Assembly (NCBI RefSeq): GCF_004343725.1
Contig: NZ_PTQW01000056.1
Coordinates: forward strand, 1 to 35,501
DNA length: 35,501 bases
Reading direction: 5' to 3'
From: Treponema sp. J25
GTDB taxonomy: Bacteria; Spirochaetota; Spirochaetia; Treponematales; Breznakiellaceae
Under the pieces are notes generated by a model. It searched no databases and was not told the origin of the DNA. It worked only from the letters and a program-made list of their open reading frames with translations. Position numbers and translations under genes: made by a program. Positions 10,512-33,942 of this stretch are shown one piece after another; the first letter of the stretch is position 1; each line of letters starts with the position of its first letter.

Positions 10512-13500
10512 AACAGACACCTCTCCCTGTGGTAAGCATGATGGTCCTCGCGTGTTCCCTCTTGCTGGGACTTGCGGGGGGACTCTGGGCTCTCGATGGA
10601 ACAGAGGGTGGGGACACTGCCACCGGGGCGTTGCCTTCTTTACAACAGGGGGGGGCTTCGGAAGAAAGTCGCGGAACTCCTCCGCTCACCAAAGAACAGC
10701 AGATCCTTGAAATGGATATTGCCACCTCAAGCCTTCTGGAACTTGCCTCCTGGTGTCGGCGCCTGGGGCTTTCCGAAGGAGGAACCCGGGAAGAATTGCA
10801 GAACCGTCTGCGACAGTATTACGGTATCCCCCTGTCGAAAGGTAGTGATGCCTCCGGGAAAGAACAAATCAGTAGTTCGGAAAAACCAAAAACCCCAGAG
10901 AAGACTTCTTCCCCACGGACCATCGTGATAGAGTCGGCCGAACAAAGTGAGTTTTTTACCCTTGATGTGGTAAACGAAGAATACGCCCGGCTCCGTGGTA
11001 AGGTTCAAATTACGATAAAAGAAGGGGACACCAGCTATACCCTGTCGGCAGAAGAATTATTGTACAATAAAACCAGAAATCAATTATCTGCCCGGGGGAA
11101 TGTGATCTATACCAAAAAGAAAGGCGAAGTGATCGAAACGTTTCGTGGCACGGCCCTAAGCCTTAACCTGGACTCTTTATCGGGGGCCTTCCTGGGGGGC
11201 TTTTCTGAGCGGGCCATGGAAGGGAAATCCAATGCCTATAAATTTACAGGTCAGGTAATTTCCCGGGATGCGGAGGGATCCACGGTCCTGCAGGATGTGG
11301 ATATCACTACCGCTTCGGTAGAAGAGCCCTACTGGTCGATTCACGCCAGTAAGCTCTGGCTGCTTCCTGGCAACGATTGGGCTATTGCCCATGCGGTGCT
11401 TAAGGTGGGGGAACTCCCCTTGTTTTATATTCCTTTTCTGTATTTACCGGGGGATGAGGTAGTCTTTCATCCGGTGCTGGGATACCGGAATCGGGAAGGG
11501 TCTTTTGTCCAGACCACTACCTATCTCCTCGGGCGACCTAAGGCCTCTTCGTCCACAGAAAACTCCATTACCCGCTTGCTCGGTTCCAGCGAAAACGAAG
11601 AGCGGCGGTTGGAAGGGGTGTTTCTCAGGGCTACGGGGGAGCGGCGAAAAAGCGGGGATGAGGTTTCCCTGGCCATACTGTTTGATATGTATGCGAATCT
11701 AGGGGCCTATGGGGGACTTGAGCTTTCGATCCCCAAAAACGGAGCATGGGGAAAACAGGATGTATCGATGGGTATTGGGTTTAGCCGGACCATCTATCCA
11801 TTAGGAAGCTCTCTGTATTCCCCCTACAATCCCATCGATGGATCTATAGATTGGAATAGTGCCTATTTCTTGAACTGGATGGTTCCCTTTCGGTACCGTT
11901 TTAAAGCGACGGGCTCCCTTTCGTTAGGAACCTTCTCTCTCTCCTGGACAATACCGGTCTACTCCGATCCCTATGTGGACGATGATTTTCTCGATCGGAG
12001 CGAACAGATGGACTGGCTCAGTATGATAAAAGAAGGGGCCAGCGCAGGGAGCAGTAGTTCTAGTTCTTCTAATATTCTGGGATCCTATAATTTGCGTATT
12101 GGAGGAAGTGGGACAATCCCTACCGATGTTCTTAGCCCTCTGATTTCGAGTTTTACCGTCAATTCCCTCAGTTCTACCTTGATATTTAAAACCAAGAGTT
12201 CCACCCTCTATGCATCCAGTTCCTCTCCCTGGCAAAGCTTTTTTTATCCTTCCCAATGGACCCTGGCATCTTTCAGTGGGAATGTACGGGGGACCCTCTT
12301 TTCAAATAGTGTAAAAAAGAGTCCTTCATCGGAACTTATCTCTGAGGATGGGAAAAAGGCGAACCTTTTGGACAGTGCCCTCTCTCCTTGGACAGAAGAA
12401 AGGTCTCCACAAACAATACCTGGGGCAGAGGGACCGCAGAAACAAGCTGATACTTCTGATTCCTTTACCATACCGGCCCTTTCTCAAACCTTTGAAGGTT
12501 CAGGAGGGGCTCAGTATTTATGGAATGTGGAATACAGTCTTGATCCCACCGCTTCGTGGGATCTTCACTACCATTATAGCAAATGGAAAGAAGTATACGA
12601 AGTAAACTGGAGTGATATTAGTTACCTCTATTCTATATTAGGAATTAATGGTACTATTGCTTCGAATTTCTCCCGTAGTGATAACCTTTTCACTATGAGT
12701 TTTAAAATAGGGGGAAACGCAAACTGGCAACACTATCAGTACATTGATACCTCCGCATCGGATATCGATGCGAATAGCCTGCTCCTCTCAGCATACAAGG
12801 CTTCTGGATATTATCTTACTGCAGAAAGCACTTTTACCTTAAGGCCCCTCGTACAGGATGAGATGTGGAAGAATTCTCAGTTCCAGTATACCCTTAAAGG
12901 TAAATGGCTGAGTACGGTGTTTAATAACGATGTTCAGGATCCCCGATGGGACCTCCTCTGGGGAAGCTGGTCAAAGGACTATATCTCGAGCCACAGCCTT
13001 TCCGCCACTCTTTCGGCTCTTACGTCGTTAGGAGAACAATCCCTCGGCCTTTCGATGGAACTTCCCCCCCGGGAAAGCCTTTTGAGTGGGAATACCCGTC
13101 TTCAGTGGGGGGCCAGTTCTCTTTCTGCAAACACCTCTATTTCTAAACCCTTTGAAGATCCCCTTTTTAATCCTCTTACCGTTTCTGGTACGGTGGTGTT
13201 TGCTCCCCGGTTTCAATATAAACAGGATCTTACCTATACGCCGGAAGAAAAAAGTCTTACCTCCTGGATTTCTACCCTCTCGTGGTATGACCTTTCGGCT
13301 TCCCTTTCCTATGCCTATAGCAAGTCCTACCTTTTTAGTGGAGGTAAATGGACCCTTGCCTCCGACGAAGAGGCCCTTCGTCCTAAGGCTTTTCAACTTT
13401 CCTATGGGACTTCTCTCAATAACCTGGTATTCTGGAAAAACCGAATACAGGCAAGTTTGAATATTTCTTCTTCCTTAAGTCTTGATTTGCAGCGCTATAC

Positions 13501-27208: not shown

Positions 27209-28867
27209 ATGAGTATCCGGCTTAAAATATTGAGTGTGGTGCTCCCCCTCCTTGTAACGTCGGTGGTGCTCGTCGGAGGAGCTTCCTATTTTCTTGCGGT
27301 CTCTTCGGTAACGGCGGTGGCCTTTGATTTTCTCAGTTTTAAGGCCGAAGAAGTAGAACAGTATGCGGAAAGTCAGTGGAAGCTCCTGGTGGAAAATGGC
27401 AAGGTAGGGGAGCCGGAGATGGAAGCGGCCGCCCAGGCGGCGGTGGTTTCCTTTGCTCGAAGCGTCCTCCGCAGCGATACGGAGGCCATCTGTGCCTTCG
27501 ACAGGGAGGGAAACCTTGCCATGGTGGTGGGACCCCTTTCGTTTAAGCCGGAAGAGCAACGCCTGTTGCAGGACTATGGGGCCCAGCAAAAACGGGGGCT
27601 TGTAAATTTCCTGGCCCAGGATATTAACCGGGTAGCGGTGACCTTTCCTTTTGTTCCCTTTGGGTGGCAGGTCTTTGTATCCGAACAGGAAAGCACCTTT
27701 TACGGCCAGGCCCGCCGGATAGGGCAGTTTTCTGTATATATCTTGGTGGGAGCCCTGGTTGTGGCCAGCGCCCTGTTGTTACTCTTTGCCCGCTTCCTTA
27801 CCCGTCCGATCAGGATAGTGACGGATACCATGCAGTCGATTATTGAAACGAACAATCTTTCGGAGCGGGTTCCGGTCCTCTATCGTGATGAGATTGGTCG
27901 GCTGTCTTACACCTTTAATGTGATGCTCCAGGAACTGGAACAGGCCTATACGCAGATAAAAAAATATGCCTTCGAAGCCGTGGTCGCACAGAAACGGGAA
28001 ACAAAAATTCGCAACATTTTCCAGCTCTACGTTCCCAAGGATGTCATCGACGAAGTCTTCATGAACCCCGAAAAGATGCTCGTGGGGGATAACCGGGACG
28101 TGGCGATCCTTTTCTCGGATATTCGGAGTTTTACCACCATTTCGGAGAAAATGGCCCCCGATGAACTAGTGAATTCCTTAAACCGCTATTTTTCAATAAT
28201 GGTGGATGTCATCATGGGAAAAAATGGGGTGGTGGATAAGTACATCGGGGATGCGATTATGGCGGTGTTCGGTGCCCCCGTAAAACATGGCAATGATGCC
28301 CTGGATTCGGTCCTTGCGGGCCTTGGTATGATCGACGCCCTTTCTATTTTTAACGCGGAACAGAAAAAATTAGGGGGCCCCGAGTTCCAGATTGGCGTGG
28401 GAATTAACTATGGCATTGTAACGGTGGGAAACATTGGCTGTGAAAAAAAGATGAACTATACCGTCATTGGGGATACGGTAAACCTGGCAAGCCGCCTTGA
28501 GGGGCTTACCAAGAAGTATCACCAGCCGATTCTCTTTTCCCAGTCGGTCTATGAACAGGTGAAGGACCAGGTCCTCTGTAGAACCGTGGACAAGGTGGCT
28601 GTAAAGGGAAAGACCATTGGGGTGCCCATTTATACCAGCCGCACCCGCATAACTGAAAAAGAAACCGAAGGGTGGTATATTCATGAGCAGGCCCTGGGAC
28701 TCTACTATGAACGGGATTTCTCGGGCGCCCGGGGACTCTTTGAGCGGGTCCTGAGCCTTATTCCGGAGGATCCCCTGGCAAAGGAATACATCCAGCGCTG
28801 TGGGGTCTATGAGAAGAGCCCACCACCCCCAGAATGGGATGGGGTTGAGGTGATGACCGAAAAATGA
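27209..28867 (+). CDS. Membrane class III adenylate cyclase with HAMP domain
   Basis: The 552-residue protein has TM1 (about 8-32), an extracytoplasmic sensor (about 33-172), TM2 (about 174-196), a HAMP domain (about 197-250) with RPIRIVTDTM and YRDEIGRLSYTFNVML, and a class III cyclase domain (about 285-470). The metal aspartates are Asp304 (FSDIRSFT) and Asp348 (YIGDAIMA). The adenine-specifying Lys344 precedes the latter, and GDTVNLASR carries the transition-state Asn425 and Arg429. All catalytic residues are present, so cAMP synthesis is expected. A C-terminal TPR-like helix pair (about 490-535) and a Pro-rich tail follow. It leads the outer-membrane/lipoprotein cluster, with an ATGA overlap to the next gene. 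Confidence 0.9.
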   Translation: MSIRLKILSVVLPLLVTSVVLVGGASYFLAVSSVTAVAFDFLSFKAEEVEQYAESQWKLLVENGKVGEPEMEAAAQAAVVSFARSVLRSDTEAICAFDREGNLAMVVGPLSFKPEEQRLLQDYGAQQKRGLVNFLAQDINRVAVTFPFVPFGWQVFVSEQESTFYGQARRIGQFSVYILVGALVVASALLLLFARFLTRPIRIVTDTMQSIIETNNLSERVPVLYRDEIGRLSYTFNVMLQELEQAYTQIKKYAFEAVVAQKRETKIRNIFQLYVPKDVIDEVFMNPEKMLVGDNRDVAILFSDIRSFTTISEKMAPDELVNSLNRYFSIMVDVIMGKNGVVDKYIGDAIMAVFGAPVKHGNDALDSVLAGLGMIDALSIFNAEQKKLGGPEFQIGVGINYGIVTVGNIGCEKKMNYTVIGDTVNLASRLEGLTKKYHQPILFSQSVYEQVKDQVLCRTVDKVAVKGKTIGVPIYTSRTRITEKETEGWYIHEQALGLYYERDFSGARGLFERVLSLIPEDPLAKEYIQRCGVYEKSPPPPEWDGVEVMTEK

Positions 28868-29592
28868 GAAGCCGTATGCGGGTACCGAAATCCCTCAGAA
28901 CACCCCTGGTGGCAGGAATGGTCTGGTTCCTTCTGGTTTTTAATGGGAAGCCAGCCCTGGGGGAAGAACATCCTGAAGAAACTGAAAAGCTCCGATATAC
29001 CTCCTGGGGAATCCTGTACGGATGGACCAATTCTGGGGAAGAGGCGAAGGACCGCGCGAAAGATGCAATCGACGAATATACCTCGATGCTCCTTTCTTCT
29101 CTAAAATATGCTCTTCGGCAGGAGGGCTTTGAAATTTCCTTCCAGGAAGAACTAAAGGGTTCTCGGGCCGCTGCTGGCCCGGTCTTATCAGAAGAAGGGG
29201 GACTCTCCTCTGTGCTCTATGGGTTTGAAAGGGCCCAGGAAACAAAGAGTCGCTGGCTTGTGGTGGTCCGGACCTACCGGGAAAGAACCCGTTTTAGCTG
29301 GTACATGGGTATCTACGATGGGCTTTCGCAGAGTCTTGTCGTTTCGGACAGTTCCTTCCTTTTCCCGGGCCTCTCGGCCTTACCACAGTTGGATGAAACA
29401 GTGGGGCGTATCCTGGCCAGCTGGAAGGAAAAACAAAAAGAGCCGATAAAGCCGATAGAGGTAGTGGAACATCGTCAGCTTTTTAAGGGAACCCAGCAGG
29501 GCATTTCGGTATTTTTTGGGGACTCTGCCCAGGGTGTGGCGGTGGGAACTCTGGAGGGGGGGGATGGTGCTCGCCCCCTATGTTCCCTTTGA
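28864..29592 (+). CDS. Exported PEGA/outer-membrane protein, N-terminal part (frame broken at poly-G)
   Basis: The 242-residue frame starts with a signal peptide (hydrophobic about 14-31, cleavage near ALG/EE) and a helical domain (about 45-190) that I do not recognise. It then enters a PEGA-like beta segment (HRQLFKGTQQGISVFFGDSA, then GVAVGTLEGG). At an 8-G run (29556-29563) the frame diverges and a short junk tail (DGARPLCSL) ends it. Removing one G joins TLEGG directly to MVLAPYVPFEAEKPVPITLE in the next frame, giving one continuous protein of about 435 residues up to 30172. The interruption is either a phase-variable switch or a sequencing or assembly error. It overlaps the cyclase stop by ATGA. 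Confidence 0.7.
   Translation: MRSRMRVPKSLRTPLVAGMVWFLLVFNGKPALGEEHPEETEKLRYTSWGILYGWTNSGEEAKDRAKDAIDEYTSMLLSSLKYALRQEGFEISFQEELKGSRAAAGPVLSEEGGLSSVLYGFERAQETKSRWLVVVRTYRERTRFSWYMGIYDGLSQSLVVSDSSFLFPGLSALPQLDETVGRILASWKEKQKEPIKPIEVVEHRQLFKGTQQGISVFFGDSAQGVAVGTLEGGDGARPLCSL
29556..29563 (+). repeat. Homopolymeric G8 tract at a frame break
   Basis: Eight consecutive Gs sit exactly where the reading frame of the surrounding outer-membrane protein gene shifts. With eight Gs translation ends nine codons later; with seven it continues for about 200 codons. Poly-G tracts of this length are known contingency sites in Treponema pallidum. Confidence 0.8.
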
Positions 29593-30172
29593 GGCAGAAA
29601 AACCCGTGCCCATTACCCTTGAAAAAGAGGGCTACTGGCCCAAAGAACTGGTACTCCCCAGGGGAATTACGAGAGAGCCCTTTCTTCTTCCGGAGTTACA
29701 CAAAAAAACAACCCAGGCCTGGTGGGCTTCTGTCACCCTTACCCGTCTTATGGGGGCAGAACTGGGGATGCGCTGGTATCCTTTCCCGGACCGCTTTTTC
29801 CTTTCCCTTTCGGATGCCCTCTGGATGAATCATACCTTTCAAGAGGGATCCTATCCGGTGTTCCATACGGAAGTCCGGGGCGAACTGGGGGTATACCTGC
29901 AACGAAGGGTGGACGACCCCTTCCGGATTGCTCTGGGCATGGCCCTGGGGGGTATCTACACCTGGGTGCCTGGCCTGGCAGGCGAAATAGGCCGCCTGGA
30001 CCTGGTGACGGATATCCTCTGGGTGGGCTTTGAGTACCATTTCCCTACCTGGGCGGTGTTCATTAAGAATCGCTTCCCCTTTGCCTGGGGAACGGGGTAC
30101 CTGGACCGGGCCTGGATGGAAATCCCTAACATGGGGCCCCAATTCTGGACCCTGGGGGTGCTGATAAAATGA
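29564..30172 (+). CDS. Exported PEGA/outer-membrane protein, C-terminal beta-barrel part
   Basis: This is the continuation of the preceding frame after the 8-G tract. It finishes the PEGA-like module (KPVPITLEKEGYWPKELVLP), then has about 150 residues of amphipathic strands rich in Trp/Tyr/Phe (GAELGMRWYPFPDRFFLSLS, VGFEYHFPTWAVFIKNRF), typical of a small outer-membrane barrel of 8-10 strands. An ATG directly after the G run (29564) has GGAGGGGGGG in front of it, so separate translation is conceivable. On its own it would lack a signal peptide, so it was probably made as part of the full-length protein. It is coupled to the next lipoprotein gene by ATGA. The frame remains open upstream to about 29516. 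Confidence 0.65.
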   Translation: MVLAPYVPFEAEKPVPITLEKEGYWPKELVLPRGITREPFLLPELHKKTTQAWWASVTLTRLMGAELGMRWYPFPDRFFLSLSDALWMNHTFQEGSYPVFHTEVRGELGVYLQRRVDDPFRIALGMALGGIYTWVPGLAGEIGRLDLVTDILWVGFEYHFPTWAVFIKNRFPFAWGTGYLDRAWMEIPNMGPQFWTLGVLIK

Positions 30173-31173
30173 AGATGAAGCAGTATCGCTGGCCCCTGGC
30201 CGGCCAGTCCTCCCTCTTGCTTGTCCTTTTTGCGTTTACCCTTTCCTGTGAACTCCTTAAACTGGATGTGTTCCCTTCCTACCTGGGGAATAGCCAGGGC
30301 CTGGTCCAGCTTGATTCCTACCTGCAGGCCGCGGGGGCCGACCCTTCCCTGGGAGATCTGGGGTTCATGGTCTTTCTGGATGGCGCCTACCAGGGGACTT
30401 CCTATCGGTACCTCGGCCTAGTCTGGCATCAGGTTTCGGCGGGACCCCTGCTCCTCTTTTTTGATGGGGATACCCTGGCCTTCCGGAAGAGCCTGGCGAA
30501 CCTGCCCGCCGGGGCCTACCTGGGGATTACCGCCGATGGCCGCCTTATCAGCGGAGGGCCCATTTCTGAGACTTCTCCTTACATCTTGATAGATCCCCGT
30601 TCTCTCCAAGAAGATCCATTGAGTAATTCCTTCTCTTCTGGTTCTTCCTTTTCCCGGGCCTGGGTGGTGGTGGCCCCCGATTCGGGAACTCCCAAAATCT
30701 ACCTGGTGAGTTCGAATACTAATACTCTCTGGTATTGCGACTTTAGTGATGTGGATACTAAGACTTTAGGCTCCGTCTCCGCGGCCTTTTATCTTGTGGA
30801 CCTCCTCAAGGTGGGCGATACCCTCTGGTTTCTTATCAAAAATGAAACGGATAAGACGGTAAGCCCCTATGGGGTTTCCAATTTTTCTTCGTTTGGTTTT
30901 CAGTCGGCCTATGGCTCACCAACGGCGCCGCTTCCCCGCATTCCCCTGGGGAACGATGGTCGCGCCTGGATAAGCCCCGGTGGAGTGATTACGGTGCAGC
31001 ACGATGATGGGGTGCGGCTCTCCCGCTATTCCTTAGACGAAGGTTCCAAGCTCGATGAGTTTGCTATGCCTAATCTTAAGGATGGGGTTTTTGCCTTTGC
31101 CGCCGATGGCAGGCGCTGGGCCTGCTATGACCGGAACCGGCGGCGGCTTTATCTTTTGCGGACCTGGTGGTAA
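30169..31173 (+). CDS. Lipoprotein of unknown function, partner of the upstream barrel protein
   Basis: A 334-residue product with a hydrophobic signal (about 14-26) and a relaxed spirochaetal lipobox TLSC, giving a lipidated Cys27. The mature part is beta-rich with repeated aspartate-glycine turns (FFDGDTLAFRK, ITADGRLISGG, AFAADGRRWACYD), resembling a propeller-like or repeat fold, though no family is assigned. It overlaps the barrel gene by ATGA. It probably sits at the outer membrane beside that barrel, judged by genetic coupling only. Confidence 0.62.
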   Translation: MKMKQYRWPLAGQSSLLLVLFAFTLSCELLKLDVFPSYLGNSQGLVQLDSYLQAAGADPSLGDLGFMVFLDGAYQGTSYRYLGLVWHQVSAGPLLLFFDGDTLAFRKSLANLPAGAYLGITADGRLISGGPISETSPYILIDPRSLQEDPLSNSFSSGSSFSRAWVVVAPDSGTPKIYLVSSNTNTLWYCDFSDVDTKTLGSVSAAFYLVDLLKVGDTLWFLIKNETDKTVSPYGVSNFSSFGFQSAYGSPTAPLPRIPLGNDGRAWISPGGVITVQHDDGVRLSRYSLDEGSKLDEFAMPNLKDGVFAFAADGRRWACYDRNRRRLYLLRTWW

Positions 31174-31175
31174 CC

Positions 31176-32726
31176 ATGACGATACGAATACGCGGATGGC
31201 AACAGGGAACACGGCTCTGGATACTCCGGGGACTGCTGGTGCTTCTGGTCTACCTTGGTGGTGGTCCCGGGCTGGGCGCCCAGAACCTGGACCTGCCGGA
31301 GGATAGAAAGAAAGATGCTTCCCCGGCGAGTCTCCTCCTTGTGGTATCCCTGGAGGTGCAAGAGGGCGTTCAGAGAGCCGGGGCGGTTTTGCCCTCCTTC
31401 TGGGAAGAATCCCTTGCGGCGAGCCTTGCCTCCCTGCCACAGGTCGGGGCGGTGTTCCAGGGCCAGCTCTTACGGGGGTCGGAAGAAATCTATGGGCACC
31501 CCGGGGAAGTCGGCCCGGCCTCTAAAGCCCAGGGGCAAGGGGATGCCGGCTCCGCCGGGGCTTCTTTGACGCCCTCGCCGGCAGGGCAAGAAGGACCCAC
31601 TGCGGGGGGCGGCCCAGGGGGGACTGCTCCAGAGGCCCTTTCCACGGAAGCAAAGAGCCCATCTTTGCCAGCCCAGGTTTCTCCCACAGAAAAGGAAAAT
31701 GTGCTCCTTCGCTGGGCCGCCCCCCGGAACTACGACTACCTGGTAAGCGGTTCCATTAGCCTGGCTTCCCCTTCTTCCCCGCGGGGCGGGGAAGGGGCAG
31801 GAACTCCTTCTTCTAAAGAAGGAGCCCGGGTTTTTGTTCGTCTTTCCCTGCGGGATGTGATCAGCCTGAAGATTATCCATACCCTGGAGTGGAACGCTCC
31901 CTTCCCGAGCGAAGCAGAACTCCTTCAGACCTTCTGGCTCCCCCTCCTGGATGCGGTATCTTCCCTATCGTCCACCGATTACGTCACATCCCTGACCATC
32001 CAGGGGCTTCCGGGCACCCGGGTCCGGGGTTTTACGGAAAAACCTGTCATTATTCCCGAAGAGGGAACTGCGGTGGTTCAGGTGCCTAAGTTACACAGCT
32101 TTTCCTGGCATGCGACAACCCCGGGGCATGAGGATCTCTCTGGTTCCTGGCTTACCATGAACGAGGAGGAAACCCTGGCGCTTTCGCCTCTTCCTCTTCT
32201 CCGGAACACCCTGGAGTGGGGTATGCTCCGGGGGCAGTTTGGAGATTTTTGGCTCGGGCGTTACTTCTTCCAGAACCGGCTCCACCTGAAAATTGGGGCA
32301 GAACAGTACATCGTGGGGTTCTACTTCCCCTCTATCTGGGAGAGTAGTGACGTTTCCATGACGATTTCCCTGCCTATGATTCTTCCGGGCCTGGTAGGAG
32401 AGTGGTACTTTGGGGAGAATCACCAGTTTATCCGTCCCTATGTGGCCCTGGGGGCCCTGCTCCGGTTGAACCTGGACCAGGCAGCCCTGGATCCGGTGGC
32501 GCCCCTCATCGTGCTGGGGCGGGGGGGCCTTCTCTGGCGGGTAAATCGTCAGTGGTCTTTTTTGGGAGAGCTGGGGGTGGATTGGTATCCCTTTGCGGAT
32601 GGGCTGCTCCTTGTGGCAAACCAGAAAACGCAGTCGGAAGGGAGTTCACCGTTCTTTTTGTACAGCGATCGCTGGTACCTGGATCTCTTTGTCTTTCGTT
32701 GTGGGGTAAGAATTAGTTATGAGTAA
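31176..32726 (+). CDS. Exported PEGA-like/outer-membrane barrel protein with low-complexity linker
   Basis: I chose ATG 31176 (GGTGG lies six bases upstream); a GTG at 31167 would add three residues. The 516-residue product has a signal peptide cleaved near GLGA/QN. A helical domain (about 45-105) is followed by a Gly/Pro/Ala/Ser-rich linker (about 110-175), beta strands, and a PEGA-like part with GTRVRGFTEKPVIIPEEGTA. The C-terminal barrel (about 340-516) carries LGVDWYPFADGLLLV, which parallels LGMRWYPFPDRFFLS in the upstream barrel protein, so the two are probably distant paralogues. A 7-G run lies in the barrel part (32521-32527). The gene overlaps the preceding lipoprotein only with the GTG start, and the next gene by 8 bp. 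Confidence 0.62.
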   Translation: MTIRIRGWQQGTRLWILRGLLVLLVYLGGGPGLGAQNLDLPEDRKKDASPASLLLVVSLEVQEGVQRAGAVLPSFWEESLAASLASLPQVGAVFQGQLLRGSEEIYGHPGEVGPASKAQGQGDAGSAGASLTPSPAGQEGPTAGGGPGGTAPEALSTEAKSPSLPAQVSPTEKENVLLRWAAPRNYDYLVSGSISLASPSSPRGGEGAGTPSSKEGARVFVRLSLRDVISLKIIHTLEWNAPFPSEAELLQTFWLPLLDAVSSLSSTDYVTSLTIQGLPGTRVRGFTEKPVIIPEEGTAVVQVPKLHSFSWHATTPGHEDLSGSWLTMNEEETLALSPLPLLRNTLEWGMLRGQFGDFWLGRYFFQNRLHLKIGAEQYIVGFYFPSIWESSDVSMTISLPMILPGLVGEWYFGENHQFIRPYVALGALLRLNLDQAALDPVAPLIVLGRGGLLWRVNRQWSFLGELGVDWYPFADGLLLVANQKTQSEGSSPFFLYSDRWYLDLFVFRCGVRISYE

Positions 32727-33942
32727 GAACGCTGCCACATTCCGGAGACCCTGTGGCCTCCGCAGTCATATCTTTACACCTGAGGACGCCCGGCGGGAAC
32801 TTACCCTCTATCTCCCGGCTGCCTGCCGGGTGGGCCGGGGGCTTTCGGAGTATATTCTTACGACCCTCTTGTTTGGCTTTGGCCTTCTTGCTTCTTCCTG
32901 CTGGCATCCCCCCTTTGATCCTGCCGTAAGCGCCTCTGCGTGGGCCGTGGAAAAACTCGGGAATCCCGTGGCGGAGTACACCCTCTATGGAGCCTATGGG
33001 ACGGCAAATGGCTTTTTCTGGCCCGCCAAGGATGGCACCACCTTTTATCTTAATACGGGTCTCTGGGTGTGGGAGGAAAATAACCGGCTGCGGATTGGCT
33101 ATCTTTCAAGCCTGGCCTCTGGCATGGTTGTAGGGAACTCTTTCTTTTCAGAGTTACCCTTCTATAAAGGAGAGCGCCCCTGGCTCCTCCAGTATGGAGC
33201 AAATGGAATGGTGTATGGGGGGGACCCTCAGAATCTCCGAATTGTGCAGGCAATCCCCAATGACCCGTGCAACCAATATATTCCTTCTGTTGATGGGAGC
33301 TTTATTAGCATAGGCTTTGGGAGTCTCATGAATAGTACCGATAACGTAGAGCAGGTCTATATCGCTTCCTGGTGGCGCAATACTTCTGGGAATCCAGGGA
33401 TAGATGTCTATGCCTACAAGGCCGGAGATTCCTTCCCACCATCCAACCCCACAAAATACACCCTTCGCCCGCCGCGGGAATTGCCGGAAGGTTCCTTCTG
33501 GGTCGGTAAGTATCCCTATGATGAGAATACCGCGGGACCGGTCTATGTTTCCTACCAGGTTCGGGGGACCGGTACCTTCGTTACCTACAAATGGAATGAT
33601 TCTGGAAATAGCAGTGAAGACCCCTATAAACTCCCCATCCCCAACCGGATTACCCGGATACTTTCCACCGGGGACCTGGTGGCCGAGCTTGATACCAAGA
33701 TGTTTGTCTATAGCCCCGAGGGGAACCTGAAATACGTAATTCCCACCGGTTCCTGCCGGTTTATCCACGAGGTGTGGGTCAACGATGGTCTTGGTGGGGG
33801 TGGGCACCCGGAAATGCTCTTTAGCCGCTTGATTCGATGGAAGCTAAGCTCCTGGGAACAACAGCAGTATGGGGCCTATTGGAAGTACCAGGTAAGCCTG
33901 TACCGCATTCCCACGGCGGAGCTCTATCGCCTGGCAGAGTAA
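32719..33942 (+). CDS. Lipoprotein of unknown function, partner of the second barrel protein
   Basis: The 407-residue product has its hydrophobic signal only at residues about 45-60, ending in a lipobox-like LLASSC, so the first 43 residues form an unusually long n-region. The true start may be the GTG at 32830, which would give a normal-length signal, but its ribosome-binding site is weak. The mature part is rich in Tyr/Trp/Gly strands (LYGAYGTANGFFWP, YLNTGLWVWEENNRLRIGYL) and ends in YRIPTAELYRLAE. Like the lipoprotein before it, it follows a barrel gene with overlapping reading frames. I recognise no family. Confidence 0.6.
   Translation: MSKNAATFRRPCGLRSHIFTPEDARRELTLYLPAACRVGRGLSEYILTTLLFGFGLLASSCWHPPFDPAVSASAWAVEKLGNPVAEYTLYGAYGTANGFFWPAKDGTTFYLNTGLWVWEENNRLRIGYLSSLASGMVVGNSFFSELPFYKGERPWLLQYGANGMVYGGDPQNLRIVQAIPNDPCNQYIPSVDGSFISIGFGSLMNSTDNVEQVYIASWWRNTSGNPGIDVYAYKAGDSFPPSNPTKYTLRPPRELPEGSFWVGKYPYDENTAGPVYVSYQVRGTGTFVTYKWNDSGNSSEDPYKLPIPNRITRILSTGDLVAELDTKMFVYSPEGNLKYVIPTGSCRFIHEVWVNDGLGGGGHPEMLFSRLIRWKLSSWEQQQYGAYWKYQVSLYRIPTAELYRLAE

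Follow-up and report, generated by a model that had tools for sequence, protein, structure and literature searches.

A one-base frame break at a G8 tract in a putative outer-membrane barrel gene of Treponema sp. J25, possibly a slippage allele

In the stretch of DNA analysed here (the window: 35,501 nucleotides, which are the complete contig C56 of the 3.18 Mb, 66-contig genome G000 of Treponema sp. J25), a forward-strand reading frame at 28864-29592 loses its frame inside a run of eight Gs at 29556-29563, a site that homologues cross in a single frame. Our preferred explanation, held with rather less than even confidence, is that the window carries a one-base slippage allele at a mutable tract and not an evolved contingency locus. 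In the upstream frame, which begins at the ATG at 28864, the tract comprises the third base of a GAG codon, two GGG codons and the first base of GAT; the protein reads ...AVGTLEGG and then, for nine more codons, DGARPLCSL before a premature TGA at 29590-29592. The adjacent frame passes through the tract without a stop, has an ATG at 29564 directly after it, and runs to a stop at 30170-30172, such that the two halves when joined amount to 233 + 202 = 435 residues. An earlier sequence-only reading had described the break, the nine-codon tail, the continuing adjacent frame and the joined length of 435 residues, and on all of these it proved correct. A coding-frame HMM trained on the source genome places the switch at 29566/29567, and coding character is kept in both halves with no second lesion. 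The tract length itself is that of one draft consensus assembly.

Each half was searched on its own, against 59 relatives and then against 200 genomes of the family. Among the 59 relatives, the 3' half is matched in 14 genomes (its own included) and the 5' half in 13, at loci that are mostly shared, and wherever both halves match in a relative, one open frame carries both. A homologue is present in 42 of the 200 family genomes, the source genome again included; apart from two truncated at contig ends, of 330 and 319 residues, the other homologues are single open frames of about 396-997 residues, and the downstream frame of the window gene measures 237 residues in the same search. A scan of the genome collection with a three-row alignment returned three loci, in metagenome bins labelled Treponema, each in one frame. 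Homologues align through GTLEGG, and on both sides of the tract the residues match without a gap, with TLEGG-MVLAPYVPF in the window corresponding to TLEGG-TLEGRYLPF in G027 and to TIEEG-ELTTPIVLF in G024. The surrounding operon is kept in the same order through the taxonomic order, and the neighbours of the broken gene are intact. Upstream lies an adenylate/guanylate cyclase with a HAMP domain (27209-28867, +; Pfam PF00211, E 1e-27, and PF00672), syntenic in relatives, which overlaps the start of the barrel gene by ATGA; a second four-base overlap, ATGA at 30169-30172, joins the far end of the barrel gene to a probable lipoprotein with a lipobox-like FTLSC (30169-31173, +), identified from its sequence and synteny. 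This is followed by an exported and probably second barrel protein (31167-32726, +), which has no Pfam match and matches NCBIfam OmpW at an E of 0.007, far under the cut-off, and by a syntenic gene with no family match in Pfam or NCBIfam (32719-33942, +). Because all other homologues found run in a single open frame and the operon is conserved, the two halves are one conserved gene split by one base, as had been proposed from the window alone.

The product of the intact gene is best described through a homologue. No Pfam family matches the window halves, or an intact homologue even at E<=1, and no NCBIfam family fits either. The fold was modelled for the homologue L128, from a five-row alignment, and not for the window protein (mean pLDDT 74.5, pTM 0.49), and it comprises a signal helix, an alpha/beta domain resembling the TolB N-domain, linker strands and an eight-strand barrel of the OmpA type. 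The N-terminal domain gives a Z of about 10.8 to the TolB N-domain and 11.1 to FlgT, and the barrel gives 16.9 to OprF, 16.1 to OmpA and 16.0 to NspA (rmsd 2.2-2.3 over 129-132 aligned residues). The modelled fold is like those of OmpA/OprF-type eight-strand barrels and of TolB-N-like periplasmic domains, but sequence identity is ~10%, the TolB-N-like domain comes first and the barrel last, and the protein belongs to no Pfam or NCBIfam family. Transferred to the window, this architecture would assign a signal peptide (~residues 1-33), the TolB-N-like domain and the start of the linker strands to 28864-29592 (+), and the remaining linker strands and the barrel to 29564-30172 (+), in line with the exported protein with a C-terminal barrel that was first suggested. 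The PEGA-like module suggested at the join is not confirmed by sequence, as the Pfam searches of the window halves and of an intact homologue gave no match; the model does place short beta strands between its two domains. The break falls in these linker strands; since the barrel lies C-terminal of it in the homologue's model, the break would take away the membrane anchor, and we infer that what is left would be a soluble fragment in the periplasm.

How unusual is a frame change at such a tract? Runs of seven or more Gs are rarer than chance in the window (14, compared with 44 expected from shuffles), and the genome has 96 runs of at least eight G or C, 82 of them of exactly eight and 14 longer. 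What stands above chance is the change of frame at the tract, not the tract as such. A frame test in 240-base windows found 33 of the 34 tracts flanked on each side by confidently coding sequence to be in frame, the exception being the G8 described here, with about half of the tracts left unclear and two breaks, close to the start of a gene or to membrane segments, missed. Of 67 coding G8/C8 tracts, a more sensitive pass found about 65 continuous and 2 broken. In the window, the G8 tracts at 10648 and 21204 are in frame. Counting breaks that are supported by homology, there are 3 among about 73 coding tracts of at least eight G or C, compared with 0 of 371 at runs of six to seven G or C and seven to eight A or T; the corresponding Fisher p values, about 0.004 for these three events and about 0.02 for tracts of exactly eight (2 of 67), rest on two or three events chosen partly by eye. 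The few automatic break flags at the shorter tracts, many though not all of which were inspected, were attributed to overlapping genes, since the stop of the first and the starts of the next lie together. As the breaks concentrate on long G/C tracts, slippage, whether biological or technical, is their likely cause.

The second break is at a C8 on the coding strand (C34:43065-43072, L107), where the frame changes between a membrane sensor part and a GAF/HD-GYP part that in the nearest homologue (G041) form a single frame of 582 residues. The third, at a G9 (C14:150219-150227, L086), falls in the signal-peptide part of a lipoprotein-like gene whose start codon and lipobox (LLGAC) are in different frames, and the G051 homologue of which is continuous from its start. 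A further G9 (C13:213584-213592, L081) belongs to a CRISPR-associated gene of the DevR/Csa2-like kind (PF01905, E 1e-31) and precedes its stop by seven bases; there the other frame yields a basic, AT-hook-like tail, and judged from its sequence this could be a fourth break.

Poly-G also occurs in this genome in a quite different setting. Two G13 tracts (C37:4934-4946, L110, and C41:2693-2705, L115) lie between a TTGACA and a TATAAT or TACAAT, and the same promoter recurs in two related genomes with tracts of G13 (G027, C1 near 296431, L197), G8 (G068, C132, L196) and G9 (G068, C219, L195). In all five copies the poly-G follows straight after TTGACA-N7, and in most it stands straight before the -10 box (TATAAT/TACAAT); the genes below the spacers encode small secreted proteins (MKKxIASLLVL..MVMAE), with a divergent C39-peptidase-like gene in four of the five. 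Because the flanks are conserved while the tract length differs, the arrangement suggests a transcriptional phase-variation promoter like that of tp0126, and these spacers are stronger evidence for poly-G switching in this lineage than the window G8. Elsewhere in the source genome, two copies of TTGACA-N6-G10 (C12:126336-126345 and 128005-128014, L074) each lie upstream of a 73-residue peptide that has a double-glycine leader (SSLELEQIEGG) and is bacteriocin-like.

Two features of the assembly deserve mention. A run of 18 Gs (C53:27517-27534, L124) lies 62 bases from a contig end, where the assembly probably stopped at a long poly-G. Contig C46 (L126) shares 94.5% identity across 6.2 kb with G027, a single-contig genome whose composition it also has, whereas the window has that of the main genome; because C46 is foreign, the source genome is probably a metagenome bin. 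On C46 the operon seen in the window has an intact homologue, and the idea that this copy might be an intact backup paralogue was discarded, C46 being a probable contaminant. A viral-contig scan gave no match.

Under the explanation that we prefer, the G-run would have arisen through the codons used locally to encode Glu-Gly-Gly, its length would then have changed by one base (modulo 3), likely through strand slippage, and the population sampled would carry the result as a null or minority allele; low-frequency reversal would be expected at such a tract, and nothing indicates that it has been selected as a switch. In one review, runs of 6-8 Gs are classed as 'mutable', with rates of 1e-7 to 1e-5 per division, and runs of more than seven as 'hypermutable' (PMC4235727), and as these classes overlap at eight, the G8 sits on the border between them. 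That the allele is real, and not an error of the consensus, is our inference. The competing reading, a sequencing or assembly indel in which the organism's own tract is in phase, its gene is whole and the consensus is one base off, is a serious contender that we nonetheless consider doubtful. Poly-G/C runs of eight or more are a known weak spot of short reads, with high Illumina error or contig ends (PMC4235727), this draft is in 66 contigs with at least one of them foreign, the G18 run lies close to a contig end, and both halves of the gene look otherwise undamaged. Against this, some 65 of the 67 coding G8/C8 tracts, together with all confidently classed coding runs of seven to eight A or T and six to seven G or C, are in frame. 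With nearly all coding tracts in frame, homopolymers are not a general weakness of the assembly, and genome-wide homopolymer error is ruled out as a general explanation.

The sequence-only reading had inferred an on/off or length switch, and this was not established. An evolved poly-G phase switch, in which slippage would toggle between the barrel protein at full length and a shortened version in the periplasm, perhaps also altering downstream translational coupling, seems unlikely to us even though the tract borders on the hypermutable class, the gene encodes a surface protein, two more breaks at G/C runs of at least eight occur in surface or signalling genes (the G9 of the C14 lipoprotein and the C8 of the C34 HD-GYP gene), and promoter poly-G spacers of unequal length exist in the source and two related genomes. 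The tract is private to the source genome and just eight long: across an alignment of about 40 homologues, all from other genera, no G-run close to the site is longer than six, their longest runs there being of three to six, and a conserved contingency tract, in the sense of seven or more Gs at this site in any aligned homologue, was not found. It lies in mid-gene and not at the 5' end, the frame is kept across most coding G8 tracts, and mutS and mutL are present and intact. Recoding or internal initiation is more improbable still, whether by slippage of the ribosome or RNA polymerase on the G-run or by starting the barrel half at the ATG at 29564. The GGG-GGG-G sequence would permit P-site tRNA re-pairing one base on, and the tract itself creates a candidate internal start, with a GGAGG (29553-29557) ideally spaced six bases 5' of the ATG (29564-29566); but the shift site has no stop or evident slow codon, homologues read through in one frame with no such element conserved, and a barrel begun at 29564 would be without an export signal. 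Least credible of all is a pair of natural adjacent genes with a genuine stop between them, which the ATG at 29564 and the overlapping frames formally resemble. The comparison with relatives rules it out, as every other homologue with both halves has one open frame rather than two conserved genes with a natural stop.

If the slippage allele is real, it would add another slippage-broken surface gene in this spirochaete family, and the small set of breaks at G/C runs of at least eight, together with the poly-G promoter spacers of the same genome, is a lead in its own right; if it is an indel error, it is a warning against inferring a switch from a single draft genome. It is tempting to speculate, and we consider it quite unlikely, that this lineage of uncultured and free-living spirochaetes like the Breznakiellaceae, under no known host immune pressure, would vary surface and signalling proteins through poly-G slippage at promoters and in reading frames, with the barrel protein of the cyclase operon among them. 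We know of no study of poly-G switching in this family. The precedent originally invoked, T. pallidum, holds insofar as the tracts there belong to spirochaete surface-protein genes, but the poly-G of tp0126 and tprE/G/J/L lies within or close to the promoter, outside the reading frame, and alters transcription, with length variation measured and, for tp0126, a spacing of 17 bases working best (PMC7864442). Common to those genes and the window gene are a spirochaete, a surface protein and a G-run of about eight; the window tract, in contrast, is in mid-gene, affects the reading frame and is known from one consensus, and it is the C37 and C41 promoter spacers that are far closer to tp0126. Tracts in the contingency genes of Campylobacter and Neisseria are usually of 9-12 bases and reappear at one locus from strain to strain, and their switching has been measured. 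With these translational poly-G/C genes (PMC4235727) the window gene shares an intragenic G-run that sets the frame of a surface-related gene, but its tract is of eight Gs in one genome, and an orthologous tract of differing length was not seen in its relatives, all of other genera.
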